39,388 nt of DNA, taken from assembly GCA_902812405.1 (NCBI GenBank), contig CADDZI010000021.1, forward strand, positions 1-39,388, read 5' to 3'. Made by a program: the position numbers and the translations under genes. Source of the stretch: a bacterium. Lineage in GTDB: Bacteria; Vulcanimicrobiota; Vulcanimicrobiia; Eremiobacterales; Eremiobacteraceae. Positions 1,166 to 27,177 of this stretch are shown here, in pieces; positions within the stretch are counted from its first letter, which is position 1; every line of letters starts with the position of its first letter. The notes beneath the pieces are model-generated. The model saw nothing but the letters and a program-made list of their open reading frames with translations, was not told the DNA's origin and did not search any database.

Positions 1166-3079
<1,914 letters not shown>

Positions 3080-5702: not shown

Positions 5703-5808
5703 CCTACGCCCGCTGGGGCTGCACGGCCGGACAGATCGCACGCACGCTTGCGTCTTGCCGCCGGCAGTCCCAAGGCAGCTCCGCACTCGCCTCATCAGGA
5801 GGTTTCTC

Positions 5809-9962: not shown

Positions 9963-9979
9963 AACCAGCTGACGACGAA

Positions 9980-10007: not shown

Positions 10008-10035
10008 AAGGGGCGGCCACGAGAGCCGGCTGCGG

Positions 10036-10950: not shown

Positions 10951-11074
10951 AGATTGATTCCCTCCTGGAACGGATCTCCCAACGGTCTACGGGTTTTGCC
11001 TAATGTGTTGCCTATGTACTAAAACGGAAGGCTTGGTCACCTTGTTCCGGTTGTGACCGGCATCACATATGATT

Positions 11075-11341
11075 TCATAAGGTCGCTTGCCTGGCAGTCC
11101 GCGAAGCCTGGCAATGCAAGCAACCAATCTGACCGCGCAGCCGGTCGTTGAGTATGCCTCGAGCCTGATCCACCCTGTGGTTGAAGTTAGCGTCCTCGAC
11201 GCGGGCCAGGACGGTCAGCAGACCTTGCAACTGGTTGCTGACCCTGAGATGCCGCAAGTGAATGACCGCCGCAATGGCGGTGGCGGCTATGACGATGAAA
11301 GTGCCGACCGCGGCGACCGAGTCGATGAGCTGGAACGACAT
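11075..11341 (-). CDS. Truncated single-pass membrane protein
   Basis: An 88-codon frame with a strong ribosome site (AGGAGG at 11351-11356, read on the minus strand) and one N-terminal transmembrane helix (SVAAVGTFIVIAATAIAAVI). A basic juxtamembrane stretch and an amphipathic segment (LRVSNQLQGLLTVLARVEDA) follow. This helix-plus-linker layout is like small membrane proteins of the DUF4760 type, which usually run to about 150 residues or more. Here the C-terminal 20 or so residues lose that character (CLHCQASRTARQ), and neither other frame gives a convincing continuation. The gene start looks real, and the product is probably truncated by a deletion or frame change. The function is unknown. 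Confidence 0.55.
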   Translation of the reverse strand: MSFQLIDSVAAVGTFIVIAATAIAAVIHLRHLRVSNQLQGLLTVLARVEDANFNHRVDQARGILNDRLRGQIGCLHCQASRTARQATL

Positions 11342-11501
11342 AGTCTCGGACCTCCTAGCCGAAGGCCAGAACCGGGTGAGCGAATGTCTATGCTAGGATC
11401 GGTCGTTTGTACTTCTTGTCTGGCATAGGCAAGCAGGCGACTCCAATCCCAAGCCTCGTCATTCTTGGCCTGCTGCGGCCGAGATCCCACAAGACAGAGC
11501 G

Positions 11502-11524
11502 GTCAGGGCGGCGTGCGCCCTGAC
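11502..11524 (-). terminator. Hairpin after the broken minus-strand gene
   Basis: A perfect 9-bp inverted repeat (GTCAGGGCG against CGCCCTGAC) with a 5-nt loop lies 9 bp beyond the stop (11533) of the frameshifted gene on the minus strand. A moderately T-rich stretch (CTCTGTCTTGT) follows on that strand, as expected for an intrinsic terminator. Confidence 0.6.
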
Positions 11525-11532
11525 GTCACACC

Positions 11533-12370
11533 TTACTGCAGGGCCCAAAACTGCACGATGAAGTCGATTCCTTGTACGAGACTGTAGCCCGTGGGGTTTT
11601 GCACAGTCGTCTGGATGTAGTGCCGCGGGGCCAACAACCCGGCTGCACGACCCAACAACAGCGGCGGCTTTGGTGTCGGCGACGGCGCCTTTGGAATAAA
11701 GATCCGAGACGGCGGAATGGCTACCGCAGTTAGCGAGCGCATCCTTGCAAGCGTCGGCTGGACGATGATATGCGTGGCGGAGCGGGAGGCCAGCAGCGAA
11801 GCTAGAGGTAGGATAGTGATCTGCCCGCTCCACACCGTCGGGAGCCGCTCATGTAGCCTCCGCCCCAGCCGGTCCACGCCGTCGTGGTCGCAGTGACGAT
11901 CAAGGGGACATGATAGGGCAGATGTGACAACTCATACCGGCACGAGTACGTATCGCCGTTTCGCGCCAAGCCGGAAGCCGCCGTCGATGCGACGAGCTGC
12001 GGGGCGTGCCCAGTCTAAATTTGAGGTAGTTTTTCGGAATGATGAAATCGATGAAATCGATGTGGATCCCAGACGCAGTTCCGGAAGCGTCAAACACCGC
12101 CTGTGACGCGTCGCCCATGTTGCAGGTGATGTTGTACAGGGTGTAGCCGTGGCCCGCGCCGTCGGGTTTGCCCAAGGCAGCAGTACGTTGCGAGCAGATG
12201 GTGTCGCTGTTTTGTGCCCAGCCGTGCTGGATGGGGTACGTAATGACGCCGTTGGCTGCGTATGCGCCAGAACAGCCCGGGTAGCCGGCGGCAATCGGGC
12301 CAACAGCATGCTCCCAAAGTGCGGCGCGTCCCGCCGCGCAGGAAGTGGCCGACGGCGGCGTGAACGCTCC
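11533..12370 (-). pseudogene. Frameshifted gene for a Cys-containing protein of unknown family
   Basis: Three consecutive minus-strand frames join into one coherent protein if one base is restored at each of two points. Segment 1 (about 12370-12000) contains PGCSGAYAANGVITYPIQHG, GYTLYNITCNMGDAS and FIIPKNYLKFRLGTP. Segment 2 (about 12000-11850) contains NGDTYSCRYELSHLPYHVPL and TATTTAWTGWGGGYMSGS. Segment 3 (about 11850-11533) contains RLPTVWSGQITILPLASLL and ends TVQNPTGYSLVQGIDFIVQF, then WALQ and a stop. The style is consistent across the joins, with paired cysteines and Tyr/Thr/Gly-rich strands like an exported beta protein. The 5' end runs into the neighbouring plus-strand gene and no signal peptide was found, so the N-terminus is probably lost. 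A 9-bp tandem duplication (12042-12059) gives IDFIDF. The family is not recognised. Confidence 0.65.
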
Positions 12371-12410
12371 GGGCCGGACCCGCATCATCAGGCTCTTGGG
12401 AGTCCAATGG

Positions 12411-13274
12411 ATGACCCTTATCAAAGGCCGCACTGCGCTATTGTTGGCGCTCACATGCGTCACCCTCGCAAACTGCGGCGGGGTGCGTTTGGCCCAGGCA
12501 GCACCCGTGCCGACGCCCATGCCGGCGCAGATGACGCCGATGCCCATGCAGATGCAGATGCCCATGTCGATGCCCCCGGGGGCGAGTCACGCCGGGCAAC
12601 CGATGGACATGTCGGAGAACGAGCCCGCCAACCCCCTCAACGGGACGCAGTGGTCCATCCTCAACCACCGCGGTGCGGGATTCTTCGTTCTGCTGTGGGG
12701 CCTGAGCGCCGCGCTCGTAGGGCTGCAGTGGCCGCGCCGCACGTGGTTTCGCTTCGTACCGCCGCTGACGTTGTTCGCCCTGGCCGAATTCTTGATTATC
12801 CGCAACGACCCGAAGACATGGCCCATTGGGCCCATCGGGTTTTGGGTGAGCTTCCGCGATCCAGCGGTCTTCGAGCACCGCATCTTCGTGCTGATCATTA
12901 TCGCCATGGGTGTCGTGGAATTGCTGCGCGCCGCAGATCGCCTATCTCCCGCTCTTCAGAAGTTCGCGCTGCCCAGCCTCGCCGTCACAGCCAGCATCCT
13001 CCTCTTCTTCCACCACCACGGGGGCCTCGAGATGGAACAGATGATGGCGCATGCTAACGATCCGTCGGTCGCGGCCAGCCCGGCCTTCACGAGCATGCTG
13101 AAGTCGATGACCGTCATCAAGCACGAGCACCTGTGGTTTTCCATCGTGGGGCTCTGCCTTGCCGCGGCGAAGCTGGTCGCCGATGCCGGCGTGATCAAAG
13201 GGCGCTTGGGCGCCACCTTGTGGCCGCTGTTTGCAGTTGCTCTGGGCGCTTACATGCTGGGGTACACCGAGTAA
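12411..13274 (+). CDS. Met-rich polytopic membrane protein, probably copper-related
   Basis: A 287-residue protein. The start ATG at 12411 has GGGAG 8 nt upstream; the longer frame from 12345 overlaps the broken minus-strand gene and lacks a site. A signal-like helix (TALLLALTCVTLANC) is followed by AQAAPVPTPMPAQ and a Met-rich stretch (PMPMQMQMPMSMPPG, then HAGQPMDMS) about residues 35-70, typical of periplasmic copper-handling proteins. Six hydrophobic helices follow, including GAGFFVLLWGLSAALVGLQW and IFVLIIIAMGVVELL. Between helices 4 and 5 sits a His/Met motif, FFHHHGGLEMEQMMAH, a plausible metal site. The layout recalls CopD/PcoD-type copper membrane proteins, but I do not see a diagnostic CopD signature. 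It is convergent with the multicopper oxidase, supporting a copper role by context. Confidence 0.72.
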   Translation: MTLIKGRTALLLALTCVTLANCGGVRLAQAAPVPTPMPAQMTPMPMQMQMPMSMPPGASHAGQPMDMSENEPANPLNGTQWSILNHRGAGFFVLLWGLSAALVGLQWPRRTWFRFVPPLTLFALAEFLIIRNDPKTWPIGPIGFWVSFRDPAVFEHRIFVLIIIAMGVVELLRAADRLSPALQKFALPSLAVTASILLFFHHHGGLEMEQMMAHANDPSVAASPAFTSMLKSMTVIKHEHLWFSIVGLCLAAAKLVADAGVIKGRLGATLWPLFAVALGAYMLGYTE

Positions 13275-13407
13275 GGCCCCCCACACGGAAGAGTTAGAGA
13301 CGCCAACCACCGCGTAGACACGCAAAAAAGGCCGGACAGTCCGCGAAAGACCGCGCAGACACGCCGCTCGGCACGGCGCCGGCGACGGATGTGCGCCAAT
13401 CAAGTCT

Positions 13408-13458
13408 GTGCGGGGCATCCCGCCATTGTCTACCTCCCGTCTTTGCGGTGCCCCGCAC
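13408..13458. terminator. Long-loop inverted repeat between convergent copper genes
   Basis: Arms GTGCGGGGCA (13408-13417) and TGCCCCGCAC (13449-13458) pair perfectly over 10 bp around a 31-nt loop, between the stops of the Met-rich membrane protein and the multicopper oxidase. It may be a shared terminator. The long loop and missing T-run make this uncertain. The same spacer has two near-copies of CCGCGYAGACACGC (near 13310 and 13351). Confidence 0.35.
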
Positions 13459-13478
13459 TGCGCAAGGGGTGGCCCTGC

Positions 13479-15038
13479 CTAGCCTGAGGGCAGGTAGCGC
13501 ATGACGGTCGCTAGCCCCCCGCTCAGGTGCAGATCGTTGTGACAGTGGAACAAAAACGACCCCGGGTTGTCGGTCACGACGTCAATGGAAATCGACCCCA
13601 TCCTGGGCTGCACGACGACCGTATCTTTGAAAATGCCGGTGCTGGCTTGCCCGTTGACGCTCGTAACCTCGAACGTGTGGCCGTGAAGGTGCATCGGGTG
13701 TTCCATCATGCTCATGTTGTGCATCGTGATGCGGTAGCGCCGGCCGGCCTGCACGGCTAGCGGTTTGGCACGCGGGTAGGGTAAGCCGTTAATCCCCCAC
13801 ACCTCGGGGTGCGATGACAGCTGACGCAGACGTAGGACAAACTCGCCCTCCGCTCGCACGGGTGAGGCTCCCGTGCTGAAAGCGCTGTACGACCAGTTTG
13901 CGGGTCCGGCCGGTTCCCACACGGGCGGACCGCTTCGGCCCGCGTACTCCACGACGATGCCCAACCCACGCCGGCGGTATTGGTCCTGCGTGCTCCCCAG
14001 CACCCACACGCCCGGCTCGTCCATCGTAACGATCGCGTCGACGCGTTCGGCCACGCCAAGCTCAATCGCGTCGAATGTGCGTGGCGCGGCAACCGGGTTA
14101 CCATCCAGAGCCACAACTTCAAAGGCGTGGCGGGGCAGTGCCAAACGGTGCGTCAATGTGGCGCTAGCATTGAGGATGCGAAACAGGACGCGCTCGCCGC
14201 GGCGCACCCGGATCGGCTCACCGAAGCCCAGCGCTTTCCCATTGATGGAAAAGAGCGCATAATCGGCTTCGAGCATGCTCATCGCGCCCATCATCGACAT
14301 GCCCCCACCCGGCATGGGCATCATCTCTTGCATGCCACCCATCCCGCGATGCGCAGGGCCAGCGGGAGACTCGGAGGTTGGACCGCCCACCATCATCATC
14401 GGCATGGTCATGCCCATCGCAGGTTGCGTGAGACGGGGTGATTGCGGTGTCGGCGTGTGGCCCGCCATTCGGTAGAGCGTGCCCTCCCACTCATGGAGTA
14501 CCAGGAACACCTCGCGGTCGTACCGCCCGGGATCGTTGCGCGGCTCGACGTAGACCACGCCTAACTGCCCGCTGAAGATTCCCTTGTTCGTGTCGAAGTC
14601 GCTGGCAGTGTGCGTGTGATACCAGCGCGTTCCGGCCGGCCGGGGCGTGAACGTGTAACGGCGCCGCCCTCGGGCGGGAATCGGCGGCGTGCCAAGCTCC
14701 GCCACCCCATCCACCGTATCGGGAACGATCTGCCCATGCCAGTGGATGAGCTCGTCGTGGTTTGTGTGGTTGCGCATCTCCACGCTGATGGATCGACCCT
14801 CCCGCATGCGCAAAAGCGGTCCCGGCACCTGGCCGTTGTACGCGATCGTGCGGATGTAGCGGCCGGGCGCCACCTCGATCCTGACGTGATCGATCTCGAG
14901 CACGATGTCGGCTTTGCGCGAGGCAGGCGTGGCGGCAGGAACGCCGGCCGGGGATTGGCGGCTACAGGCGGCCGGCACGAGAGCCGAGCCAAGCAGGGAC
15001 AGAAATTCGCGGCGTTGCACGGGCTGGTCTTCCATCAT
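13479..15038 (-). CDS. Multicopper oxidase (CopA/laccase-like), Met-rich
   Basis: A 519-residue periplasmic three-domain multicopper oxidase that would oxidise Cu(I) or phenolic/metal substrates while reducing oxygen to water. The copper ligands are visible: HWHG (99-102), HTH (141-143), HPMHLHGH (from 447) and HCHNDLH (498-504, with type 1 Cys499). The N-terminus QRREFLSLLGSALVPAAC is a twin-arginine-like signal with a possible lipobox Cys25. A Met-rich loop between domains 1 and 2 (about 207-255, some 16 Met in 49 residues, with GMGGMQEMMPMPGGGMSMMG) resembles the copper-binding insert of CueO and CopA. The start is the first of two ATG codons (reverse complement of 15036-15038); there is no strong ribosome site, and the frame extends upstream only as Arg/Ser-rich shadow. 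It is divergent from the S53 protease gene and convergent with a Met-rich membrane protein. Copper tolerance is the likely role. Confidence 0.93.
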   Translation of the reverse strand: MMEDQPVQRREFLSLLGSALVPAACSRQSPAGVPAATPASRKADIVLEIDHVRIEVAPGRYIRTIAYNGQVPGPLLRMREGRSISVEMRNHTNHDELIHWHGQIVPDTVDGVAELGTPPIPARGRRRYTFTPRPAGTRWYHTHTASDFDTNKGIFSGQLGVVYVEPRNDPGRYDREVFLVLHEWEGTLYRMAGHTPTPQSPRLTQPAMGMTMPMMMVGGPTSESPAGPAHRGMGGMQEMMPMPGGGMSMMGAMSMLEADYALFSINGKALGFGEPIRVRRGERVLFRILNASATLTHRLALPRHAFEVVALDGNPVAAPRTFDAIELGVAERVDAIVTMDEPGVWVLGSTQDQYRRRGLGIVVEYAGRSGPPVWEPAGPANWSYSAFSTGASPVRAEGEFVLRLRQLSSHPEVWGINGLPYPRAKPLAVQAGRRYRITMHNMSMMEHPMHLHGHTFEVTSVNGQASTGIFKDTVVVQPRMGSISIDVVTDNPGSFLFHCHNDLHLSGGLATVMRYLPSG

Positions 15039-15211
15039 AGCAAGGCGGGCCGGCCCGGGCAAGGTGCCGGCTGTTCTCGGGTTGTTATACCCGTCAGCGT
15101 AGGATGCCGCGTATGGCGGCGCTGTGGCAAGCAACTCTGCTGGCCGGCGACGGGACCGTCGAGTGGCCTCCGTGTTATCTGTCTGTTCGCCCCTTGTAAT
15201 CGGCGCTCGGG

Positions 15212-15217
15212 TATGCT
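15212..15217 (+). promoter_or_regulatory. Possible -10 element for the S53 gene
   Basis: TATGCT in the context GGGTATGCTG lies 46 nt before the ATG at 15264. The next secreted-protein gene (17402) has the same hexamer at 17351-17356, 45 nt before its ATG. No convincing -35 is seen at the usual spacing. Assigned only because of the shared sequence and spacing. Confidence 0.25.
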
Positions 15218-15263
15218 GAAGTGTGCCCTTGGGTCTGCTCCTGGAAAGGAAGGTGCTTGTGCA

Positions 15264-17183
15264 ATGAGATTGATGAGATTGGGGAGGGTCGCCGCCGCCC
15301 TGGCGCTGCTTGCCTGTGCTGTACCCGCGTGGGCGGCAGGCACGTGGCGGGGTCCCACTGCTGCCGTGACGACAACGTCCCTGTGGGCCGGCACGGCGAC
15401 GCATGCCGTGAATCTGGCCGCGATGGCGGGCGCAAGAAGCCTCATCATGGCGAGGCTTTCGGATGCGGTGCCTTTGCGCATCATCGTCGGCCTGGCCAGC
15501 AATCGTGCAGCCGCCACTGCTTTCCTGCGCCATCAAACAACACCCGGTGATCCGCTCTTTCACACATTCCTGACGCCGGCTCAGTTCACGCAGATGTTCA
15601 ATCCGTCACGCACGCAGGCGCTCGCCGTCGCAACCTACCTGGCGCGCGAAGGCTTCACCGACATCGCCATCGAGCCCAATAATCTCATCGTCAGCGGTGT
15701 CGCCCCGCCCTCGCGTGTCGAGGCGGCCTTTCACACGACGATCCAGGCCACCGTCGTCAACGGCAGGCTGCTGTATGGCAACGTGACACCGGCCCTCGTT
15801 CCCGCATCGCTGCGAGGTTTGGTCGTCGCCGTTCTGGGGCTCAACAACGTCTACCGCATGCACACTCACATTCTGCCGATGAGCAGGCTCGCGGTGCGGC
15901 GGCTTGCGATCTCTCCGCAGCCCCTGCAAAGCGGCGCCGCGCACACCCCGCCTCCCTGCCTTGTCGTGAACGCGCAAAATGTCTGCACGTTCGGCGAGTA
16001 TGGCCCGGTGCAGTACCAACGCGCGTACGACGCCTGCCCGACGACCTGCACGGGGTACAACACGACCATCGCGGTCATGGCCGAAGGCAACGTCAGCCAG
16101 GTGCTCAAGGACCTGCGGACCGCGGAAAGCTACTGGGGTTTGCCGCACGTTCCGTACAGCGCGATCCAGGTCGGCGTCTCCAGCGTCGACACGTCGGGGC
16201 TGGATGAATGGGACTTGGACACGCAGGTCGCCAGTGGCATCGCACAGACGGTCAAGCATCTCTACGTGTACCACACGACGACGTTGACCGACTCGGACAT
16301 CACGCTCGAGTACAGCCACTGGGTCAACGATGATCTAGCTGTTGCCGGCAATTCGTCGTTCGGAGAGCCGGAGAGCTTTGCCTACGCCGACGGCTCGATG
16401 GAAATCGACGACGCGCTCTTCAACCAAGCCGCCGCGCAGGGGCAGACCATGTTTGCGTCCACCGGCGACAACGGTGAAGGATGCCCGGTGCTGGCCGCGA
16501 CGGGTGTGCCCAACAGCGGCACACCTGAGGTGTGCTATCCGGCGTCGTCTCCATACGTGGTGGCAGTCGGCGGCACGACGCTGGATACCAACGCGGTCGG
16601 GGCCAAAGGTCCGTGTACGAACTGCGGCCAGCCGGGCACGTATTATGGCGAGCACGTCTGGATCGGCACCGGCGGCGGCGTAAGCGCGTTTGAGAGCGCT
16701 CCCTACTGGCAGACAAACGGCATCGTCGCACTGGCCGCGGCCGGGCGAGCGATCGCCGACATCTCCATGTGCGCGGATAACAATGGCTGCCCGATGGACG
16801 TCTTCGTCAACGGAGCCCAAATCGGCGTCGGCGGCACGAGTCTGTCGTCGCCGATGTCCATGGGCGTGTGGGCCCGCTTGGAGACGATGCACGGCAATAA
16901 GTTGGGCTTTGCCGCTCCCGTCTACTACGGCATCTACGGCAAGTACGAACCCTGCCCGCTGGGCTCGACGGCGTGCACGCCGTCGGAATTTCCGACGGCC
17001 AACACCGCCGCGCTGCCGCCCGACACAACCGAGCCCATTGGCGGGTTCCACGACATCCTCTTCGGCAGCAACGGTATCCCCTCCAGCGCGGCGCCGGGCT
17101 GGGATACGCCCACCGGTCTGGGATCGGTGGACATTTGCGTGATGCAAAAGGACATCGCGAACTCGATCTTCTCCGGCCACTGA
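15264..17183 (+). CDS. Pro-kumamolisin S53 serine protease
   Basis: A 639-residue secreted acid protease of the sedolisin family, this one with the pro-domain. The start ATG at 15264 follows GGAAAGGAAGG. The signal peptide is RVAAALALLACAVPAWA, then AGTW. The activation domain is about residues 55-200: PLRIIVGLASNRAAATAFLR, TPAQFTQMFNPSRTQ, and PSRVEAAFHTTIQ are typical pro-kumamolisin blocks. The catalytic domain has E315 and D319 in DEWDLD, D402 in STGDNGEG, and nucleophile S526 in GGTSLSSP. A late GFHDILFGSNG block fits the family's calcium site, and GWDTPTGLGS follows. Known: the propeptide is removed autocatalytically at low pH. The second S53 in the window (8754-9962) is a short, lipid-anchored form without this pro-domain. 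Confidence 0.95.
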   Translation: MRLMRLGRVAAALALLACAVPAWAAGTWRGPTAAVTTTSLWAGTATHAVNLAAMAGARSLIMARLSDAVPLRIIVGLASNRAAATAFLRHQTTPGDPLFHTFLTPAQFTQMFNPSRTQALAVATYLAREGFTDIAIEPNNLIVSGVAPPSRVEAAFHTTIQATVVNGRLLYGNVTPALVPASLRGLVVAVLGLNNVYRMHTHILPMSRLAVRRLAISPQPLQSGAAHTPPPCLVVNAQNVCTFGEYGPVQYQRAYDACPTTCTGYNTTIAVMAEGNVSQVLKDLRTAESYWGLPHVPYSAIQVGVSSVDTSGLDEWDLDTQVASGIAQTVKHLYVYHTTTLTDSDITLEYSHWVNDDLAVAGNSSFGEPESFAYADGSMEIDDALFNQAAAQGQTMFASTGDNGEGCPVLAATGVPNSGTPEVCYPASSPYVVAVGGTTLDTNAVGAKGPCTNCGQPGTYYGEHVWIGTGGGVSAFESAPYWQTNGIVALAAAGRAIADISMCADNNGCPMDVFVNGAQIGVGGTSLSSPMSMGVWARLETMHGNKLGFAAPVYYGIYGKYEPCPLGSTACTPSEFPTANTAALPPDTTEPIGGFHDILFGSNGIPSSAAPGWDTPTGLGSVDICVMQKDIANSIFSGH

Positions 17184-17242
17184 ACGGTCTGGCGGTCGAG
17201 TACCCGATGCCCCCTTGAGGGCATCCGCATGAAGCAAGCGAC

Positions 17243-17264
17243 GAGGCGGCTTTCGGGCCGCCTC
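17243..17264 (+). terminator. Terminator after the pro-kumamolisin gene
   Basis: A perfect 8-bp stem (GAGGCGGC against GCCGCCTC) with loop TTTCGG lies 59 bp after the stop. A short T-run (ACGCTTTGG) follows. It is placed as expected for an intrinsic terminator. Confidence 0.6.
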
Positions 17265-17350
17265 ACGCTTTGGTGCCTGAAAGCCTGCGTTCGCAGGGTC
17301 GAGATGCGGCCTCACAGGGTCGTTTGGACGCCTTTTGGACGGCGACCCGG

Positions 17351-17356
17351 TTATGC
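17351..17356 (+). promoter_or_regulatory. Possible -10 element for the 17402 gene
   Basis: TATGCT in the context CGGTTATGCTG, 45 nt before the ATG at 17402, matches the element before the S53 gene at 15212-15217 in sequence and distance. No clear -35. Confidence 0.25.
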
Positions 17357-17401
17357 TGTCTTCCGTAGCAGCCGGCACAGGTCGGCTTTGGAGGAAGACG
17401 G

Positions 17402-19312
17402 ATGAGCGGCTCTCGGGTTCGACTTCTGTCAGCACTGGCCGCCGTGGTGTTGCTGCCAACGGCGGGCGACCGGAGCATGGCCTGGCCTTCACTGCCGGGT
17501 GTGCCGGGCGTACCGACGGTGAAACAAGCCGCCAAGGGCGTGCTCTCCAACGAACTTCTCAAAGAATTCGGTACCTGGTTCAACTACAATCGCCCGGTGT
17601 ACGTCAGCGGCAACGACGTCTTGCCGACCGTTGCGACCCTGCCCGGCGGGCCGTGGCACCCGGTGAGTCTGGCACGCGAGCTGGAGCTGGTGAAGCCGTC
17701 GCACACGCCGGTCGTCCACCTGCCTCCGGGCGACTACAACGTGGCCGTTGTGACGTACTGCATGGGGCACAACAATCAGGGTCCGTGGCGCAACAAGTTC
17801 CTGCTCGCTCCCGTCAAGGGTGCGTGGGCCGACATTCTCGATGCGCTCAACTACCGGGCGTACGGCTCGCCCTTTGCCGCCCCCGAGATCCAAGGAGTGT
17901 CGTGGGCCATGCAGGCCGGCATGAGTTACGACGAGATGAGCCCCGCACAGAAGCACATCGTCGACGTCTTGCTCCCCGACTACAAGTCGAGGCTGCACAA
18001 AGACTTCTACGATAGCGCACGGGACGAGTGGAATGCGCTGGCGTCGAAGGTGCCGGGCACACCGACATTCGAGGCCGCGCTCGGCCGACTCGGCGACGTG
18101 GGCACAGCGCTGCTCGCGATCGAGAATGCACGCGAGCAGATCATCAGCGACGGCAACAACTTCAACGCGATGGTCGCGCAGTTCGCGCACGTGGGGCAAC
18201 TGCGGCCGAGCGACGTTCTGTCCTCGACGCCGTGGAGCATCGTCGCGCCCGGCGTCTACGCCCGCCTGCGCACCCGGGGCACCTTGCTCACGCCGGGCGT
18301 CCTGCAGATCCGCATCACGGCACAGGCCGCGTACCGCAGTTTTGAGCTGGCGTCAACCCAGCTCCGCGGGCTGGGCGGCGGCGTGGCCTCGCTTTTGGGT
18401 GGCTTCAGTCTTCCCTGGAACTTGGCCGGGTTCTTGAACAACGGCACGCAGCCTCTCTCGTCCTCGCCCATCGGAGGGCCCCCCGACCCCGGCCAGGCAG
18501 GCGGCGGTAATGACAATCAACCCAACTTTTACGTCGTTGGTTCCAGCTGGCATTCCCGCAGCGGCTCCAACGGGAACAACGGCAACCCTCATGGTTCCAA
18601 TAACAACAACGGCAACAACAACGACGACAACGATAACAACGATAACGGTAACAACAATGGCGGCACGACGAACAACGGCGGCTCGGGCCACCCGGTCAAC
18701 GCGACAAACCCGGGCTCGACGTCCGTCGACCTGAGCCCGTGCGATCCGCCGGGCAACACCTTCGGTGTGGCGCACGGAGTCGTCGTCGCGAGCACCTCGA
18801 CCTCGCTCACGGTGGGGCGCGGCACGGGGGGCGGCACCGTCTGCTTGCTGCTGCGGCCCTACGTTCAGATGAGTGCGCTGGGACTTGCCGGCGGCACGGC
18901 GTCGGTCAGCTCCGGAAACGCGAGCTACAACCTGCCGAATGCGCCGATCGTTCCGGGCCACGTTGTCATTCTTGCGCGCTACGTCGTGGGTGGCTGTCTC
19001 ACGCCTCTCGTACCGAAGGGGCCGGTCCCGTCGTGTACGATCACCGCAGTGATCGATTTTGCAGGGGTCGGTCCCTTCTGCCCGGACCTCGTCCACACGA
19101 TCGCGTTGGGCAAGGCGCCGCTGGGTGATCCTGCCTCGAATTGGCTCAGCAGCGCGTCGCTGGAAAACCGGCTATGCATCACCACCATGCTCGGTCCGAC
19201 GCTGAGGATCCAGGCCTGGGTCGCCGCGACCAAGATGTTCACCCCGACGACGCCGCTGCGGGCGGTCGACCCACAAAACTTTGTCTACGATGATGCTTGG
19301 GGTCACATGTAA
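17402..19312 (+). CDS. Large exported two-part protein with Asn/Gly/Asp-rich linker
   Basis: A 636-residue exported protein. The start ATG at 17402 has GGAGGAAG at 17389-17396. A signal peptide (VRLLSALAAVVLLPTAGDRS) precedes a folded N-terminal part, about residues 40-360, with distinctive blocks: ELLKEFGTWFNYNRPVYVSG, VVTYCMGHNNQGPW, GVSWAMQAGMSYDEMSP. A low-complexity linker (about residues 396-440) made almost only of Asn, Gly, Asp and Thr separates it from a C-terminal part (about 445-636) with Cys pairs and beta-rich sequence (VAHGVVVASTSTSLTVGRGT). It follows the S53 protease on the same strand, with its own promoter-like hexamer. No family recognised. The layout suggests a surface or extracellular structural protein; an adhesin or matrix component is speculation. 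Confidence 0.8.
   Translation: MSGSRVRLLSALAAVVLLPTAGDRSMAWPSLPGVPGVPTVKQAAKGVLSNELLKEFGTWFNYNRPVYVSGNDVLPTVATLPGGPWHPVSLARELELVKPSHTPVVHLPPGDYNVAVVTYCMGHNNQGPWRNKFLLAPVKGAWADILDALNYRAYGSPFAAPEIQGVSWAMQAGMSYDEMSPAQKHIVDVLLPDYKSRLHKDFYDSARDEWNALASKVPGTPTFEAALGRLGDVGTALLAIENAREQIISDGNNFNAMVAQFAHVGQLRPSDVLSSTPWSIVAPGVYARLRTRGTLLTPGVLQIRITAQAAYRSFELASTQLRGLGGGVASLLGGFSLPWNLAGFLNNGTQPLSSSPIGGPPDPGQAGGGNDNQPNFYVVGSSWHSRSGSNGNNGNPHGSNNNNGNNNDDNDNNDNGNNNGGTTNNGGSGHPVNATNPGSTSVDLSPCDPPGNTFGVAHGVVVASTSTSLTVGRGTGGGTVCLLLRPYVQMSALGLAGGTASVSSGNASYNLPNAPIVPGHVVILARYVVGGCLTPLVPKGPVPSCTITAVIDFAGVGPFCPDLVHTIALGKAPLGDPASNWLSSASLENRLCITTMLGPTLRIQAWVAATKMFTPTTPLRAVDPQNFVYDDAWGHM
18589..18690 (+). repeat. AAC-rich low-complexity coding tract
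   Basis: Imperfect AAC/GAT/GGC triplet repeats encode the Asn/Asp/Gly linker of the large exported protein. Such tracts can expand or contract by slippage without breaking the frame. Confidence 0.8.
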
Positions 19313-19334
19313 GGAAACCTATAAGGAGAGGATC

Positions 19335-20396
19335 ATGCACAAGAATACATGTCGCTTCTGGGTCGTGCTCGGGGTCGCCGCGTGGTGCATCGCCGTGACG
19401 CGCTCGGCTGGTCTGGCGGAGGCAGCCAGCCGCCAAGGCTGTATGAACCAATGGCTCTTCAATGGCGTCTGGCGCGTGCGCGTGACTGCCATTGAACCGT
19501 CCATGAACGGCGGCCAGCAACAGGGCTGGCAAGTCACGGAAGTGTGGCGCAACGGCACGGCGCAGGAGCTGGCTCCGAGCGATTCGGTGCTGACCAATCA
19601 AAAATTGGAGCTGCAAAACGGAGCGATCACGGCGAGTGAGACCACCGGCGGAACGTTATCCCTGCAGTCCGTGACCTTCAACAACTTTCCGCCGGCCGGC
19701 GAGTTCACCTACAAACAGATCTTTTTGGCGCCCAATCTGCAAGCGGATTCGTCCAACAAACCGCAGGGCCTCCTGATTACGTTCAACGGCGCTCAGCTCG
19801 CTCAAATGAAGAGCAAGCCGCAATTCAGCACGTCGCAGTATAACTTTCACTTCAGATTCGGATGTGTCGCAACCGGCGCGGCCGCAGAGGCCGAGGGCGG
19901 GTCAAACCAGTTGGCCGCGCGACCCGGCTGCCTGAACGAATGGATGTCCAACGGCGTGTGGAAGATGCGGGTCACCGCTCTCGACACGTATCCCGTGGTC
20001 TTGAACAAGCCGCAAGATCAAATCGGCTGGCTTGTCACCCAAACGTGGGTCAATGCCTCGGGTCGCGGGATCGTTCCTCGCGGATTCTGCGATCAATGTC
20101 CGAAGTTTGCCGGCACGGGGGTCACAGATGAATATCTCGCGACGCAAGGCGGGAAGAGCGGTTCATCCGCCAACGCCGTGGGCGGCTTTAAGATCTCCGC
20201 CAAACCCGGGTACGACTGGCTTCCGGGAGAATCATGGACCTTCCAACAGTACTTCACCTGGGGCAATTTCGATCCAACCGACAAGCCGGTGCGTCTGCTC
20301 GTCACGTTTGACGACAAGACGCAGAACGCGACGCCCGGGGTCCCCCACTACCGCAAGCCGGCCGACTTCCGGATCGACCTCACCTGCAGCAAGTAA
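19335..20396 (+). CDS. Exported protein with two tandem copies of one domain
   Basis: A 353-residue exported protein. The start ATG at 19335 follows AAGGAGAGG; the frame extends to 19281 inside the previous gene's end, but without a site. After a signal peptide (VVLGVAAWCIAVTRSAGLAEA) the protein is an internal duplication. Copy 1 begins RQGCMNQWLFNGVWRVRVTA near residue 33; copy 2 begins RPGCLNEWMSNGVWKMRVTA near residue 196. Both have a later GEFTYKQIF or GESWTFQQYF strand, a KPxxLLxTF strand, and end at a Cys (FRFGC; DLTC). The first and last Cys of each unit probably form a disulfide. Copy 2 also has CDQC. It lies 22 bp after the preceding large exported protein, so the two are likely co-transcribed. 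No family recognised. Confidence 0.82.
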   Translation: MHKNTCRFWVVLGVAAWCIAVTRSAGLAEAASRQGCMNQWLFNGVWRVRVTAIEPSMNGGQQQGWQVTEVWRNGTAQELAPSDSVLTNQKLELQNGAITASETTGGTLSLQSVTFNNFPPAGEFTYKQIFLAPNLQADSSNKPQGLLITFNGAQLAQMKSKPQFSTSQYNFHFRFGCVATGAAAEAEGGSNQLAARPGCLNEWMSNGVWKMRVTALDTYPVVLNKPQDQIGWLVTQTWVNASGRGIVPRGFCDQCPKFAGTGVTDEYLATQGGKSGSSANAVGGFKISAKPGYDWLPGESWTFQQYFTWGNFDPTDKPVRLLVTFDDKTQNATPGVPHYRKPADFRIDLTCSK

Positions 20397-20438
20397 CACC
20401 GTGCGGGGCGGCGCGCGCCACACCGACAAGGAGAGAGC

Positions 20439-21206
20439 ATGGATCATCGTATCGTTGGCACCACACAGCCCGTTTTGGAAATGACCTTGCAGCCGGGCGA
20501 GATGATCATCGCCGAGCCGGGCGAACTGTCCTGGATTACGGGCAGCATTCAAATGAAGACCACGCCCATGACCGCGGGCGCCAAGAGCGTGCTCGGCCTG
20601 CTCAAACGTGCGGTCTCCGGCGGCGGCCTGTTCATGACGGAATACACGGCCCAAGGGTCGCCCGGCATGGTGGCATTCGCCACGAAGCTGCCAGGCCAGA
20701 TCCTTCCGGTCGACGTCCAGCCCGGCAAGGGCTACCTCATTCACCGCCACGGTTTTCTGTGCGCGACGCAAGGCATCGAACTCAGCATGGGATTCCAGCG
20801 TTCACTCGGCGCGGGCGTCTTCGGCGGCGACGGGTTCATCCTGCAGCGCATCAGCGGCACGGCGCAAGCCTGGATCGAGCTTGACGGTGAAGTTGTCACC
20901 TACGACCTGCCGGCTGGCGGCTCGCTCCTCGTCCACCCTGGTCACGTCGGGATGTTCGAGGAGAGCGTGAACTTCGACATCACCATGGTGCCGGGGATCG
21001 CCAATGCGCTCTTCGGCAACCAGGGTTTGTTCCTGGGCCGCCTGACGGGCCCGGGGAAAGTCTGGCTGCAATCTCTGACGCTGCCGGGGCTTGCGCATGC
21101 GTTGAGCCCGTACGTCGGCAAACACGAAGCGCCGGCCGCTGCGGTCAGCGGCGGCGTCGGCGGTGCCGTTGCCAGCCAAGTGCTCAAAGACATCTTCGGA
21201 GGTTAA
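20439..21206 (+). CDS. AIM24 family protein
   Basis: A 255-residue cytoplasmic protein of the AIM24 (DUF124, TrpRNA-like beta fold) family. The start ATG at 20439 follows AAGGAGAGA. Family hallmarks are LEMTLQPGEMIIAEPGELSW near the N-terminus, SGGGLFMTEYTA (about 60-71), LPGQILPVDVQ, the GYLIHRHGFLCAT strand, LEGR-like AWIELDGEV, and the closing GPGKVWLQSL motif. Known: AIM24 was named for a yeast mitochondrial protein, and bacterial members are widespread with no settled biochemical role. The Gly-rich tail (AVSGGVGGAVASQ) is typical. It is 42 bp after the duplicated-domain exported protein and 6 bp before a broken small exported gene, so it belongs to the same transcription unit by spacing. 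Confidence 0.93.
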   Translation: MDHRIVGTTQPVLEMTLQPGEMIIAEPGELSWITGSIQMKTTPMTAGAKSVLGLLKRAVSGGGLFMTEYTAQGSPGMVAFATKLPGQILPVDVQPGKGYLIHRHGFLCATQGIELSMGFQRSLGAGVFGGDGFILQRISGTAQAWIELDGEVVTYDLPAGGSLLVHPGHVGMFEESVNFDITMVPGIANALFGNQGLFLGRLTGPGKVWLQSLTLPGLAHALSPYVGKHEAPAAAVSGGVGGAVASQVLKDIFGG

Positions 21207-21212
21207 GGTCGC

Positions 21213-21573
21213 ATGCTCGCGCCTGTCACTTCCTTTGTGCGAAGTCAGTTGCGTGTCGGACAGGTCTTCGCACACGCCGTGCGCTCCGGCGTGGCCCTCG
21301 CGGCACTTGCCGCTGCTCCCCTGGCGCTCGCCTTGCCGGCCAACGCAGGCGTCATCACGGGGGTGACGGCAAGCGTGCCGAGCCCGGCGGTCCGTGGGTC
21401 GGCTACTATTACGCCGTGTGGGCCGTGTGGAACCACGCGATGCCGTCGACCGAATGCGCTACGGGTTGGGCCAGTTGACAGATTATGGTGTGCGGTACAA
21501 GGCGGATTCGTGGTCGTGTCCGAGCAGGGACCACAACCGCTCAACGAACCCGCGCGACAATCACGTTTCCTGA
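21213..21573 (+). pseudogene. Frameshifted small exported protein
   Basis: The start is well supported: ATG at 21213 with GGAGG at 21198-21202 overlapping the AIM24 stop, and a signal peptide (SGVALAALAAAPLALALPANA). After GVITGVTASVP the starting frame becomes Cys/Arg/Pro-rich. Two other frames carry on as a natural-looking protein: WVGYYYAVWAVWNHAMPSTE then CATGWAS (about 21392-21473), and LTDYGVRYKADSWSCPSRDH (from 21475) running to a TGA at 21571. Each join requires one restored base (near 21380 and at 21474-21475). The reconstructed product would be a mature protein of roughly 90-100 residues with two Cys. The family is not recognised. The starting frame alone gives 124 residues to 21587, an unlikely protein. 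Confidence 0.55.
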
Positions 21574-21707
21574 GCCCCGAGGGCTGATAACGGTCGTCTC
21601 CTGCGGACCAATGCGGCGGCTCTCCGGTTGAGCTCCTCGCGTCTTGAGGGCTGCCGGAGTGATGCGGGGAGAAAGGACGCCGCAGTGCAGCGCTAAATTC
21701 TCTCAGC

Positions 21708-23582
21708 ATGCAATTGTATTGCGGATCGTCGCGTCAATTTGTTGACGACACGACGCTCAACCGTGTCGCGCGCCTTATGCAGGATTCGTGGTCAGCATAC
21801 TTCGGCTATCCCCCTCCCATTTCGGAAATGCGCGCCTGGGAAAATTCGCTTCGGGCCCTCGCCTTGCAAATTAGCTATTCTAAACTGCTGGATCACGGTG
21901 TCGTGCTCGAAATGCGCTTGCCTCTGACATCTGCCCGGCTGGATTGTCTTCTCACAGGCCATGACCAGGGTGGTAGAGAGCAAGCTGTGGTTATTGAGCT
22001 CAAGCAGTGGGAGCGGGTTCAGGACTCGGATATCGACGAGTGTGTTGCCACTTTCATCGGCGGCTCGGTGCGCGCAGTCAGTCACCCCTCAGTTCAGGTG
22101 TACCATTATCAGCAGTATCTCGTCGATACGCTGACCGCTTTTCAGGACGACGGCGTGCCCGTGGCCCTCTCGTCGTGCAGCTATCTCCACAATATGCGCT
22201 TTGACCCTCTATCGCCGATTTTTGCGCCGCGATTCGACAAGGTGCTTAAGGTCGCGCCGGCCTTCACGGGGGACCAGGGAGATAAGCTGTCGACATTTCT
22301 CCGCAGTCGGCTCGCCGCAGGCGCCGGCACGCCGGTACTTGATAAAGTTATACACAGCAAATACCATCCGTCGAAGAAGCTACTCAACCATGTCGCGGAC
22401 ATGGTTCGTGGGAGCGCGGTCTTCGTGCTTCTGGACGATCAAATTGTTGCATACAACACCATCATAACCTACGTTCGCAAAGGCCTGCGGTCGAAGAAAA
22501 AGACGTGCATCCTCATTAATGGAGGCCCGGGTACCGGCAAGTCTCTGATCGCTATCAACGTCATGGCAGAACTCTCGCGCCAGGGGATCAACGCGCAGTA
22601 CGCTACCGGATCCCGAGCCTTCACAACTAACTTGCGACGCCGTGTCGGCAGCCGGGCTGCGGCTCAGTTCAAGTATTTTAACAGCTACGGTCAAGCCGAT
22701 CCGGACAGTATCGATGTTCTCTTGATGGACGAGGCTCATCGTATTCGAGAATCGAGCAATAGCCGGTTTACCGCCCGCGTGCAGCGATCGTCACGGACCC
22801 AGATCCAGGAACTCGTGCAAGCGGCAAAGGTTAGCGTCTTCTTCATCGACGACGCCCAGGTCGTGCGGCCCGGCGAGGTCGGATCAAGCGAGCTCGTGCA
22901 GGAAACGGCGGCTGCGACGGGTGCAAAGCTCGTACAAGAGCGTCTCACGGTGCAATTTCGGTGCGCCGGATCCGACGGCTTTGTCCGTTGGGTTGAAGCG
23001 TTGTTACAAATCGGTGATCACCCTCAGAAGCTCGAACCTTATACGGAGAGCGCCGACTTTGACTTTCGCATTGTCGACACGCCGTACGTGCTTGAATCAC
23101 TCATCAGAGAACGCGTGAAGGAAGGCAATACGGGGAGAATCGTTGCCGGTTTCTGCTGGCATTGGTCAGACCCAAATCCCGACGGTACTCTCCAAGACGA
23201 CGTGGTCATCGGGGAGTGGCGAAGGCCATGGAACGCAAAACCGGAAGCCGCCAAGTTAGTCAAGGGTATTCCCCGCGCTGAACTATGGGCGACCGATCCC
23301 GGTGGGATCGACCAGATTGGCTGCGTGTACACCGCACAGGGATTTGAATTTGATTATGTTGGTGTGATTGTCGGTAAAGACGTGATTTGGGACCCTATTG
23401 CCGGCCGGTGGCGCGGTCAACCGGAATATTCGTGTGATAGCCGGGTCAAAAGATCCGGCGAACGCTTCGTATCCTACATCAAAAATGTTTACCGGGTTCT
23501 GCTAACGCGAGGTATGAAAGGCTGCTATGTCCTGTTCCTCGATGAGGGAACGCGCAAATACGTGGAGGACCATATCGCGTAA
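21708..23582 (+). CDS. Nuclease-like plus DUF2075 (Schlafen-group) helicase
   Basis: A 624-residue predicted ATP-dependent nucleic-acid enzyme. Residues about 60-140 look like a PD-(D/E)XK nuclease fold: D79 (RLDCLLTG), E97 and K99 (VVIELKQWE), then a Gln-rich helix (QVYHYQQYL). Residues about 260-624 are a superfamily 1-like helicase of the DUF2075 type: Walker A NGGPGTGKSL (271-280), Walker B DVLLMDEAHR (D341-E342-A343-H344), FFIDDAQVVRPGE, an arginine-bearing TVQFRC motif, YTAQGFEFDYVGVIVG, and YRVLLTRGMKGCYV near the end. Known: this architecture recurs in prokaryotic defence loci. The start ATG at 21708 has no ribosome site. Codon and base composition differ from the flanks (lower GC). 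It is first of four genes on one strand, 73 bp before the SNF2 gene. The nuclease role is inferred from motifs only. Confidence 0.88.
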   Translation: MQLYCGSSRQFVDDTTLNRVARLMQDSWSAYFGYPPPISEMRAWENSLRALALQISYSKLLDHGVVLEMRLPLTSARLDCLLTGHDQGGREQAVVIELKQWERVQDSDIDECVATFIGGSVRAVSHPSVQVYHYQQYLVDTLTAFQDDGVPVALSSCSYLHNMRFDPLSPIFAPRFDKVLKVAPAFTGDQGDKLSTFLRSRLAAGAGTPVLDKVIHSKYHPSKKLLNHVADMVRGSAVFVLLDDQIVAYNTIITYVRKGLRSKKKTCILINGGPGTGKSLIAINVMAELSRQGINAQYATGSRAFTTNLRRRVGSRAAAQFKYFNSYGQADPDSIDVLLMDEAHRIRESSNSRFTARVQRSSRTQIQELVQAAKVSVFFIDDAQVVRPGEVGSSELVQETAAATGAKLVQERLTVQFRCAGSDGFVRWVEALLQIGDHPQKLEPYTESADFDFRIVDTPYVLESLIRERVKEGNTGRIVAGFCWHWSDPNPDGTLQDDVVIGEWRRPWNAKPEAAKLVKGIPRAELWATDPGGIDQIGCVYTAQGFEFDYVGVIVGKDVIWDPIAGRWRGQPEYSCDSRVKRSGERFVSYIKNVYRVLLTRGMKGCYVLFLDEGTRKYVEDHIA

Positions 23583-23655
23583 TGATGCTCTGACGGAGTA
23601 GTCGGATTCCTCGGGTGGCGCTTCCCATTTTTATGCCGTCATCCGCCAGCCAATT

Positions 23656-25098
23656 GTGTGTTCTGCTCAAGGCTTTGGCTCATATGAAATGGTGACGACG
23701 CCACTTTCTGCCGATCCGATTCAAGGCCGCGCCAAAGTTCCAGCTGGGTTAAAGAGTCTTAGCAAAATGCCGAAGACAGTGATGGACTCACGAAAAATGC
23801 CACCAGCACTGCGGAAGTTCCAAGAGCAAGGTGTCAAGTTCCTACTCGAGCACACAGGTGCTTTGTTGGCGGACGAGATGGGGCTGGGGAAAACCGTCCA
23901 GGCAATTGCAGCATTGCTAAGATTGTACCAGGCGAAGAGGCTGAGACGAGCTGTCATCGCTGCCCCCGCATTCCTCCTCCCCAACTGGCAGGAAGAACTC
24001 GCGCGATGGGCTCCCAAGGTGTGGTGCGAGACAGTTACGGGTACCAAGGTCCAACGTCTGGAAACGTGGCATGGCGATGCCACTATCTTTCTGGTCAGCT
24101 ATGAAACGTTGCGTCAGGACATCGATGCAATCGTCAATCGCCACTTTGACGTGCTCATCCTGGATGAGGCGCAGCGTGTTAAGAACATTCGCGCCCAGAC
24201 GCACAAAGCTCTTGAAAGAATCCGTGCCCACCGCAAGTGGGGTCTGACCGGTACGCCTGTGGAAAACGGATTCGACGAGTACGTCGCGATCTTCCAGATC
24301 CTCGCTCCCGAGATCGTCGATCCGGACCTTCGCCTGGAGCCATGGGAACTGAGGGCTAGAATGCTGGATCGTACCCTGCGTCGCAAACGGGCGGACCAGC
24401 TCGACTTACCACCCCTTGAGCGCAGGATTGTACACCTCGAGTTGCTGCCTCGGCAGCGCCAAAGATACGAGGCATTATTTCGCCAGGCAATTCATGAGTG
24501 TCGGCTGCAGCCAAGCTTAACCCATCAATTGGCGTGGCTGACAAAGCTCATGCAGGTATGCAACTGGGACCCGTATTCTGGCGAGTCGTCGAAAGCTGAA
24601 TATCTACAGAACAAACTTAAGGAACTCGAGGGATCGGACGCCGGGGTTCTCATTTTTTCGTGTCAACCGCACAAGAGCTTCGGCTTCCTGAAAGAGCGTT
24701 TGCGCTGGGCGCAGCCGATCGTTATCACCGGTGCCGACGACGTGGCTACCCGTCAGCGTCTCGTACAACGCTTTCAGAATAGTTCAAGATTTGTCGTAGC
24801 ACTTGTGTCGACGAAGGCCTCGGGGCTGGGGATCAATTTCACACGGGCCAACTACGTCATCCACTACGATCACTGGTGGACAGCGTCCGCGAGGGATCAA
24901 GCTGAAGGTCGGGCGCATCGCCTAGGTCAGCTAAGGCCTGTGCTCGCGTGGGGTCTGTGCACGACGGCCACTGTCGAGGAAAAAGTTTTGAAGATTGTGG
25001 ACGAAAAGGCGGATAGTGTTGAGCGCATTCTGACCGGCGACGGCATAGAACTGCCCTTGACAAAGCAGAAACAGCTCGTCAAAGTTCTGGAGGTGTAA
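23656..25098 (+). CDS. SNF2-family ATPase/helicase
   Basis: A compact 480-residue SNF2 (SF2) DNA translocase. The motifs are complete: DEMGLGKT (73-80), AAPAFLLPNW, LILDEAQRVKN (DEAQ 170-173), LTGTPVEN (198-204), then in the second RecA lobe LIFSC, STKASGLGINF, YDHWWTASARDQAEGRAHRL and the following GQ. It lacks the N-terminal SWIM, HIRAN or chromatin-reader domains of larger members, so it is little more than the motor. The start is uncertain: GTG at 23656 gives the longest form, ATG at 23689 is another option, and the motor itself begins near residue 47; none has a good ribosome site. Known: SNF2 proteins move along duplex DNA and occur in DISARM, dpd and other defence loci. It lies 7 bp before the DGQHR gene, so the two are co-transcribed. 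Confidence 0.93.
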   Translation: MCSAQGFGSYEMVTTPLSADPIQGRAKVPAGLKSLSKMPKTVMDSRKMPPALRKFQEQGVKFLLEHTGALLADEMGLGKTVQAIAALLRLYQAKRLRRAVIAAPAFLLPNWQEELARWAPKVWCETVTGTKVQRLETWHGDATIFLVSYETLRQDIDAIVNRHFDVLILDEAQRVKNIRAQTHKALERIRAHRKWGLTGTPVENGFDEYVAIFQILAPEIVDPDLRLEPWELRARMLDRTLRRKRADQLDLPPLERRIVHLELLPRQRQRYEALFRQAIHECRLQPSLTHQLAWLTKLMQVCNWDPYSGESSKAEYLQNKLKELEGSDAGVLIFSCQPHKSFGFLKERLRWAQPIVITGADDVATRQRLVQRFQNSSRFVVALVSTKASGLGINFTRANYVIHYDHWWTASARDQAEGRAHRLGQLRPVLAWGLCTTATVEEKVLKIVDEKADSVERILTGDGIELPLTKQKQLVKVLEV

Positions 25099-25105
25099 CT
25101 GGCCA

Positions 25106-26656
25106 ATGAGCGACGACATACGTATTCGGGAGTTACCCTCGAGTAATGGTGCGGAACTATGGGAGGTGGAAGATCCACGCAGACAGGGGCGCACATGGCG
25201 CATAGAGCTGGTCGCAGAGGACGATGGGACCTGGAGAGCTCGTGAGCTCGGGACCGGGACGACCACAGTCTTTCAGCCTATGCAAGATCTCCCAGGCATC
25301 GTGTATACCCCTGTTCAGATTTACGACACCGACGGCAATCGTCAACGTGCTCTCAACTACGGTGACCTACCGGATCACTATGCTTTTGGTCAGAATCTGG
25401 GTGCCCGGGTCGAATACCTCGAGGACCCCGCAGCGAGTGACGGACAGACGGGAGACGTGCTGGTCTGGAAAGTGCGTGTCGACAAGCCGGCCTTGATGGC
25501 TGCACTCCACGTTTTACAACGACACTGGAACGAGGCTCGAAGAGCCACTGCAACTCAGTCGCAGCGGGAGTCCGCGCCGAGGTCACACATTGTGCTTCAT
25601 GGGCTAGGCTTCAGTCAACATGGACACAGATATGTCAGTTTTGTCGCCACGGCGGCGGAGTTGCTTAAATTTGTTGAAGTTATCCCGAACACGGAGCAAC
25701 ACCCCAACTACCCGCAGCGTCCTGTCGACGCCAAGCGGCTGCGCCGTATCGGCGATTTCGTGGTTGGCGGCGGAGCACTTTTGCCGTCTATCATCGTGAA
25801 CTTCTATGACAGCGTGGATGTGGACTTCCAAGATAACAATGAAGTCTGCATCTCAATCCCCAACGATGGGGGCAAACACGCATACTGTATAGACGGTCAA
25901 CACCGCCTCTTTGCATTTGACCCAGAGAAGAGTCCGCATTCGGAAGAGGAACTCGGTGCAGATCGTATGGAGCTGCCAGTCACGGCAATGGTGCGCGAGC
26001 CCGAAAAGGTATGGGTTGATCAGTTTCTGGTGATCAATACCAAGCAGGTGCCCGTCAATAGAGATCAGATCCTGGGCTTACAACAGTACTACGGAGAGAC
26101 CTCGAAAAGCGAAGGATTGGCGGTTGAGATAGCGAGGAAGCTCAACGCGTCGCAGAGCTGCGCACTTTTCGAAAAGATCTTTATGAGGCCAGGCGAGAGA
26201 AACCGGATGATCAAATTGCGCAACTTCGTGCGCCTGCTGAAAGGCCATCTTGAGGAAAACAGCACCTTCTGGGACCACCGGACCGGTTCGCCGAATGCAG
26301 ATCTTCTCGCAGCGCTCTTAGAGAACTATGTGAACGCGTGGCGTGATTTGTTTCCCAATGAATGGGATAGTAACCAACACGTACTGACAAAAACCGCCGG
26401 CTGGGAGGTTATGTTCTCACCGGCCGGTGTGCTATCCAAGGCCTTCGAACGTCTGAATAGGTCTTACAGGGCGACGCTAGAGGACTGGAAACGCGTTCTC
26501 AAACCACTGCGTAGCCTGGAAATATCCCTGCGCAATAGAGACATCCCGCTGACCTGGGAGAGTCACACCTTCCGGCCTTACTGTTCGGGTAGAGCCAACA
26601 TCGACAACTTCGTCCGTGCCGTGCACAGGGCGTACAGCGAACGAATCACGGAGTGA
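25106..26656 (+). CDS. DGQHR-domain (DndB/DpdB-related) protein
   Basis: A 516-residue protein with the diagnostic motif AYCIDGQHRLFAF (DGQHR at 263-267), followed by LPVTAMVREPE and VDQFLVINTKQVPVNRDQIL, the typical continuation of DGQHR proteins. Residues 1-150 are an extra N-terminal region (RQGRTWRIELVAEDDGTW and onward) not part of the basic domain, and the C-terminal 150 residues are helical. Known: DndB, the regulator of DNA phosphorothioation genes, and DpdB in the 7-deazaguanine DNA system share this domain; it is ParB/Srx-related. No dndCDE, dndA, dpdA or other modification enzyme lies in the window, so a role in those pathways is not supported here. The start ATG at 25106 follows GGAGG at 25088-25092, at a long spacing of 13 nt. 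It is third in the cassette. Confidence 0.92.
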   Translation: MSDDIRIRELPSSNGAELWEVEDPRRQGRTWRIELVAEDDGTWRARELGTGTTTVFQPMQDLPGIVYTPVQIYDTDGNRQRALNYGDLPDHYAFGQNLGARVEYLEDPAASDGQTGDVLVWKVRVDKPALMAALHVLQRHWNEARRATATQSQRESAPRSHIVLHGLGFSQHGHRYVSFVATAAELLKFVEVIPNTEQHPNYPQRPVDAKRLRRIGDFVVGGGALLPSIIVNFYDSVDVDFQDNNEVCISIPNDGGKHAYCIDGQHRLFAFDPEKSPHSEEELGADRMELPVTAMVREPEKVWVDQFLVINTKQVPVNRDQILGLQQYYGETSKSEGLAVEIARKLNASQSCALFEKIFMRPGERNRMIKLRNFVRLLKGHLEENSTFWDHRTGSPNADLLAALLENYVNAWRDLFPNEWDSNQHVLTKTAGWEVMFSPAGVLSKAFERLNRSYRATLEDWKRVLKPLRSLEISLRNRDIPLTWESHTFRPYCSGRANIDNFVRAVHRAYSERITE

Positions 26657-26660
26657 TGTT

Positions 26661-26935
26661 GTGGACGGATACGAGGAAGTTGACACGGTACAAGCAGCCC
26701 ATGCCGAAATTGTGATTTCCATACGACGACGCGGCGATAAGAAGTGGTCGTTTTGGCGCCCCGCAAGAGTTATTACGACCGGGAGGACGGTGAGAGAAAG
26801 ATGTACGTTCCCCGCGGTTCATCAATTGAATTGAGCGAGCACGACCAGGTTCAGGAGTTAATTGAAACACTCATGGAGGTGAGTGCTGCTGTATTCGGCT
26901 CGTCCGTTTATGGGTTCGATTCCCAACAACCTTGA
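26661..26935 (+). pseudogene. Small fourth cassette ORF with a single frame break
   Basis: A GTG at 26661, 4 bp after the DGQHR stop and with GGAG nearby, starts DGYEEVDTVQAAHAEIVISI, then RRRGDKKWSFWRP. The frame then turns into Thr/Arg-rich sequence and stops at 26832-26834. From the same point the -1 frame gives RKSYYDREDGERKMYVPRGS, then SIELSEHDQVQELIETLMEV, ending at 26935. Reading one extra C in the CCCC run near 26760 joins the halves into a protein of about 92 residues (RPRKSYY). This could be a sequencing undercall, a mutation, or a slippage site. The product is small, charged and unrecognised. Spacing and composition tie it to the cassette. Confidence 0.5.
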
Positions 26936-27101
26936 CCGATAGCGCAATGAGCCGCCAACGCGGTCACATTGCTTGCGCGTCGGGACAGATCCTTTACGAC
27001 GTCTAGCACCCTCGCCGTACCGGTGTTCGCCCGCACGGCATAAAGCGATAGTCCGGGAACCGCCGCAAGAGACCACGTTAGAACCGAAACGGCGCCTGAT
27101 G

Positions 27102-27124
27102 CGCCCGCGTTACGATAACGGGCG
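27102..27124. promoter_or_regulatory. Imperfect inverted repeat upstream of tamB
   Basis: CGCCCGCGTTA (27102-27112) pairs with TAACGGGCG (27116-27124) apart from a two-base bulge, leaving a 3-nt loop. It lies between the cassette and tamB and could end cassette transcription or regulate tamB. There is no T-run until GTTTTTTGG at 27141. The 26936-27177 spacer holds no gene. Confidence 0.3.
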
Positions 27125-27177
27125 TCACCGTGCGGCCTGGGTTTTTTGGCCGGCGGAGGGGAATACTAGGGGTATCG

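Follow-up and report, generated by a model that had tools for sequence, protein, structure and literature searches.

Nhi is an immunity protein in which a single chain carries a nuclease domain and, after it, an SF1 helicase. Repair is a further process in which RecB-type nuclease-helicases and SNF2 motors take part. Dpd, the 7-deazaguanine DNA modification system, includes both a DGQHR protein (DpdB) and an SNF2 ATPase (DpdE). The DGQHR domain is also carried by DndB, and the DndB protein of Salmonella has been reported as a DNA-binding transcriptional regulator (PMC4507180).

The locus described here brings these three protein classes together. The window, the whole stretch of DNA that was analysed, is one entire contig (C21) of 39,388 nucleotides from the 2.32-Mb genome of an uncultured bacterium, a genome that is 96.65% complete and assembled in 110 contigs. 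A preliminary description of this DNA had proposed that three genes, encoding a nuclease-DUF2075 helicase (P1), an SNF2 ATPase (P2) and a DGQHR protein (P3), form a self-contained immune module. The acquired patch is read here, with moderate confidence, as two independent units, namely a stand-alone P1 and a coupled P2-P3 pair.

Organization and composition of the locus

Three well-formed genes on one strand had been described, and P1, P2 and P3 are indeed three intact + strand ORFs that lie side by side and span 21708-26656. P1 (21708..23582, 624 aa) is a RecB-type PD-(D/E)XK nuclease fused to a DUF2075/SLFN-g3 SF1 helicase. P2 (23656..25098, 480 aa) is a compact SNF2 ATPase, and P3 (25106..26656, 516 aa) is a DGQHR protein of the DndB/DpdB type with an orphan N-terminal extension of ~165 aa. 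The gene classes named earlier are borne out by matches to PF09848, PF00176 and TIGR03187, together with the invariant nuclease residues of P1. From P1 to the listed start of P2, for which an in-frame ATG at 23689 is an alternative, the gap is 73 bp. P2 and P3 are 7 bp apart, and a GGAGG ribosome-binding site before the ATG of P3 overlaps the P2 stop region. With this tight junction, seen at a single occurrence, the reading of P2-P3 as a translationally coupled pair survives.

A fourth small ORF had also been listed. It exists on the + strand (26744..26935, 63 aa), but its status as a gene is doubtful, and it is possibly a gene fragment or a non-gene. Searches against NCBIfam and PADLOC gave it no family, Pfam returned no significant match, its start codon stands directly after an in-frame TAA stop, and a 72-aa ORF in another frame (26616-26834) overlaps it.

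The GC content is 0.558 for P1, 0.556 for P2 and 0.549 for P3, compared with 0.641 for gyrB, 0.639 for the AIM24 gene and 0.666 for tamB in the flanking regions. The P2 value, measured from 23690, one base out of the frame of the listed ORF, is sound. The three genes form a single low-GC patch (55-56% vs 64-67%), so that the GC dip and the foreign composition noted earlier are real, and the genes were probably acquired.

The patch is the tamB-side end of a 24-kb stretch (3080..27129) bordered on the left by gyrB (1184-3079) and on the right by tamB (27130-32394). This stretch is absent at the same site in five genomes of the same family (L176, L178, L179, L180 and L181), in which gyrB is 82-90% identical and a DciA-domain gene, gyrB and tamB are mutually adjacent. 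Other contents of the stretch are a multicopper oxidase, carboxypeptidase-regulatory-domain proteins, a pro-kumamolisin-domain ORF and the AIM24 gene (20439-21206), which has a second copy on contig C19 (G000:C19:25351-26115, 87%). A short ORF with a signal-peptide-like start (21213-21587) is probably the decayed exported gene mentioned in the preliminary description. Since P1, P2 and P3 make up the low-GC end of the variable stretch, their acquisition may have been an event distinct from that of the other genes. No tRNA was found in the window, and the scanned window genes include no integrase.

The nuclease-helicase P1 and its family

P1 matches PF09848 over residues 265-612 (1.3e-87), with 294.8 bits passing the curated cut-off of 24. 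Its nuclease half matches no Pfam nuclease model. The residues of the nuclease core, D79, E97-x-K99 and Q130xxxY134, are invariant in 12 aligned homologues, as are the Walker A (272-278) and DEAH (341-344) motifs of the helicase. For the predicted structure, the best fold matches are the human proteins SLFN11 and SLFN14, and Dna2 and RecD2 are further matches; the AlphaFold model is modest (mean pLDDT 74.5), and these matches serve as supporting evidence only. PDB sequence searches with P1 gave no match, and a literature search did not find DUF2075 together with 'defense'.

Among 149 genomes searched in the phylum, 13 others carry a P1 homologue, and 10 of these homologues are clear (46-68% identical). 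Nine cover the query at 48-68% identity, a contig end truncates another (46%), and three are short or weak. In the 11 loci whose surroundings were examined, some of them on short contigs, neither P2 nor P3 was found near the P1 homologue. Relatives of P1 also occur on plasmids of bacteria and archaea, and within the DUF2075/SLFN-g3 family (PF09848) P1 can be aligned over its full length with bacterial, archaeal and viral-contig proteins, the identity being about 30-68%. The family is widespread and sporadically distributed. In Hymenobacter and Priestia, R-M genes are among the neighbours of the P1 relative. In one genome (G015, L027:140-5047), dndA, dndE, dndD and dndC lie ~4 kb from the P1 homologue, without an adjacent dndB. 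Other P1 loci have ordinary neighbours.

A MazG-like pyrophosphohydrolase gene directly adjoins the P1 homologue in six loci (L031, L200, L201, L203, L204 and L206) and lies further off in L052. Loci that combine a MazG-like gene with a DUF2075 nuclease-helicase span bacteria, one archaeal plasmid and IMG/VR contigs, and may represent a two-gene unit. In contrast to the six loci, the window contains no MazG-like gene, and the whole genome gives only a match with an E value of 0.02.

The SNF2 ATPase P2 and the DGQHR protein P3

P2 matches PF00176 (3.7e-40) and PF00271 (2.2e-14). Its nearest relatives are other SNF2 proteins, with 33-39% identity; among solved structures, a nearest relative of comparable size is 1z63. 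A viral scan with P2 alone found nothing. Compact SNF2 genes related to P2 adjoin genes for PF10923 BrxC/D-like ATPases in three genomes (L194, L195 and L196), which is a recurrent pairing.

P3 matches the TIGR03187 DGQHR model (3.5e-27), a DpdB model (1.3e-16) and PF14072 DndB (8.8e-10). An initial genome-wide scan and an initial viral scan, both with P3 alone, found nothing, and PDB sequence searches gave no match. When 84,980 species genomes were scanned for the motif A[WY][IVC]IDGQH, which is present in P3, 337 stretches were returned, and the best 80 relatives were kept. Among these best 80 of 337, the top identity is 33%, over a segment only, and no alignment reaches P3 residues 1-146. 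Judged by sequence, P3 is a divergent DGQHR protein for which the searches found no close relative.

A D12-type adenine methyltransferase gene neighbours the P3 relative in 35 of the best 80 loci, and for L226 and L228, which are related loci, Pfam verified the D12 type. Methyltransferases of the PF02086 (D12) and PF01555 (N6_N4) families are absent across the whole genome that carries P3. The pairing of a long DGQHR protein (about 760-820 aa) with a D12-type adenine methyltransferase was observed in L058, L064, L065, L066 and L067 as well as in these 35 loci, and also on viral contigs.

The preliminary description had proposed structure prediction for the 624- and 516-residue proteins. It yielded the SLFN11 and SLFN14 matches for P1 and, for P3, a top match to the ParB-like protein PadC, with a probability of 0.99 but an E value of 0.02. 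Like that of P1, the P3 model is modest: its mean pLDDT is 75.4, residues 50-127 are below 50, and beyond residue 160 the model is mostly confident. By analogy with Salmonella DndB, the reported DNA-binding regulator (PMC4507180), P3 may plausibly bind DNA.

Co-occurrence of the three genes

Homologues of all three proteins within a few genes of each other, the co-occurrence suggested earlier, were looked for and not found beyond the present genome. The search covered 149 phylum genomes, 388 relatives, the P3 motif scan of 84,980 species genomes, plasmids and phages; the genome-wide scans are built on short motifs and may leave out records very close to the present genome. No two of P1, P2 and P3 occur together as close relatives in any other genome searched, gene calls in the loci compared being mechanical ORFs. 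Within the phylum, the genomes with P1 and those with a DGQHR protein overlap only in the present one (G000).

A compact SNF2 gene lies near the DGQHR gene in three of the best 80 loci, all of which contain a seven-gene module, and one more locus has a long SNF2 gene (L118). In L227, genes for a DGQHR protein and an SNF2 protein lie on opposite strands, ~1 kb from each other. In the literature searched, DGQHR and SNF2 appear together in a single paper, an isolate genome survey.

Two Nitrospirae MAGs and Geobacter argillaceus share the seven-gene module with identical gene order (L080:5982-13112, L086:6066-13177 and L128:5981-13329). Its genes encode a 338-aa protein (ParB-like by eye), a 135-aa protein (REase-like by eye), a compact SNF2 protein, a 347-aa protein, a DGQHR protein, a 278-aa protein and a radical-SAM-type protein; Pfam backs the SNF2, DndB and, barely, Radical_SAM assignments in L086. 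As in the present locus, the SNF2 protein is compact (475-479 aa) and encoded near a DGQHR protein, in the module two genes away. However, the other five genes are absent in the window. With a different gene set and an SNF2 protein only 22-24% identical to P2, the three loci were rejected as relatives.

Interpretation of the locus

The division into a stand-alone P1 and a P2-P3 pair draws on the intact genes, their domains and catalytic motifs, the independence of P1, the tight P2-P3 junction and the foreign composition. We infer the defence role from protein families and gene neighbourhoods, and with it each biochemical step and the substrate. The helicase half of P1 would load on and unwind foreign or damaged nucleic acid, which the RecB-type nuclease half would cut, probably as an anti-phage or anti-plasmid effector. 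The P2 SNF2 translocase would move on double-stranded DNA. The ParB-like DGQHR protein P3 would bind DNA or nucleotide, directing or licensing the P2 motor. One occurrence cannot show that P2 and P3 work together.

The common strand, the close spacing (73 and 7 bp) and the matched composition also fit one co-acquired operon. They would suit a three-gene immune module in which P3 would recognise non-self DNA, P2 would travel along this DNA or remodel it, and P1 would destroy it. SNF2 and DGQHR proteins do co-occur in Dpd, and P2 and P3 match the DpdE and DpdB models. Such a module is nevertheless unlikely. The triplet is missing from every collection searched, and P1 stands without P2 or P3 at every P1 locus examined. 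The self-contained module of the preliminary description is therefore not upheld, P1 being found alone or with MazG and the relatives of P2 and P3 with other partners. It is likewise improbable that P2-P3, with or without P1, is an immune module not yet named that works without a DNA-modifying enzyme and whose minimal SNF2 motor is steered by a ParB-like DGQHR protein bearing a unique N-terminal extension.

P2-P3 could also be the relict or part of a modification-dependent system whose DNA-modifying enzyme was lost or never present. Adenine methyltransferases adjoin most of the distant P3 relatives (35 loci, D12-type), and the genome lacks PF02086 and PF01555 enzymes. The P2 and P3 genes are intact, however, and the enzyme could be unassembled, since the genome is 96.65% complete and in 110 contigs; the relict reading is very unlikely. 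A role of the three proteins in DNA repair or mobile-element maintenance instead of defence would accord with the part that RecB-type nuclease-helicases and SNF2 motors play in repair, and with a Providencia plasmid that carries a DGQHR gene surrounded by ParAB and umuDC genes. The sporadic distribution, the low GC content and the plasmid and defence-gene neighbourhoods of P1 argue against such a role, and little probability is given to it. If the patch is two independent units, as favoured here, defence-type genes lying together need not form one system.

Comparison with known systems

With Dpd, the locus shares a DGQHR protein plus an SNF2 ATPase. P2 and P3 match the Dpd models far below their NCBIfam equivalog cut-offs (DpdB, 54.2 of 300 bits; DpdE, 59.1 of 500 bits), and P2 has 480 aa vs 856-1293 for the matched DpdE models. 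Neither the dpdA transglycosylase gene nor other dpd genes were found among the window genes scanned with Pfam. P3 resembles DndB in carrying the DGQHR domain (PF14072). It missed the cut-off of the Dnd-associated model TIGR04172 (48.8 vs 450 bits), and dndACDE were not found among the window genes scanned. Similarly, P2 missed the cut-offs of DISARM DrmD (69.6 of 950 and 59.1 of 610 bits) and the equivalog cut-off of ZorD of Zorya type I (145.2 of 1500 bits), and the window genes scanned include no drmA, drmB, drmC or DNA methyltransferase gene. The statement made earlier that methyltransferase, dnd and dpd enzymes are missing from the window agrees with these scans.

P1 has the nuclease-then-SF1-helicase single chain of Nhi and AbiO, with weak PADLOC matches to both (Nhi, 2.6e-11; AbiO, 9.7e-11). 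However, the match covers ~140 residues around Walker A/B, that to Nhi being confined to residues 250-392 (40.8 bits) and not full-length, and P1 differs in length and sequence. The anatomy of the P1 family is that of an invariant RecB-type nuclease core joined to a Schlafen-like helicase, recurrently beside MazG. If P2 and P3 did act as a pair, they would constitute a DGQHR system without a modification enzyme.
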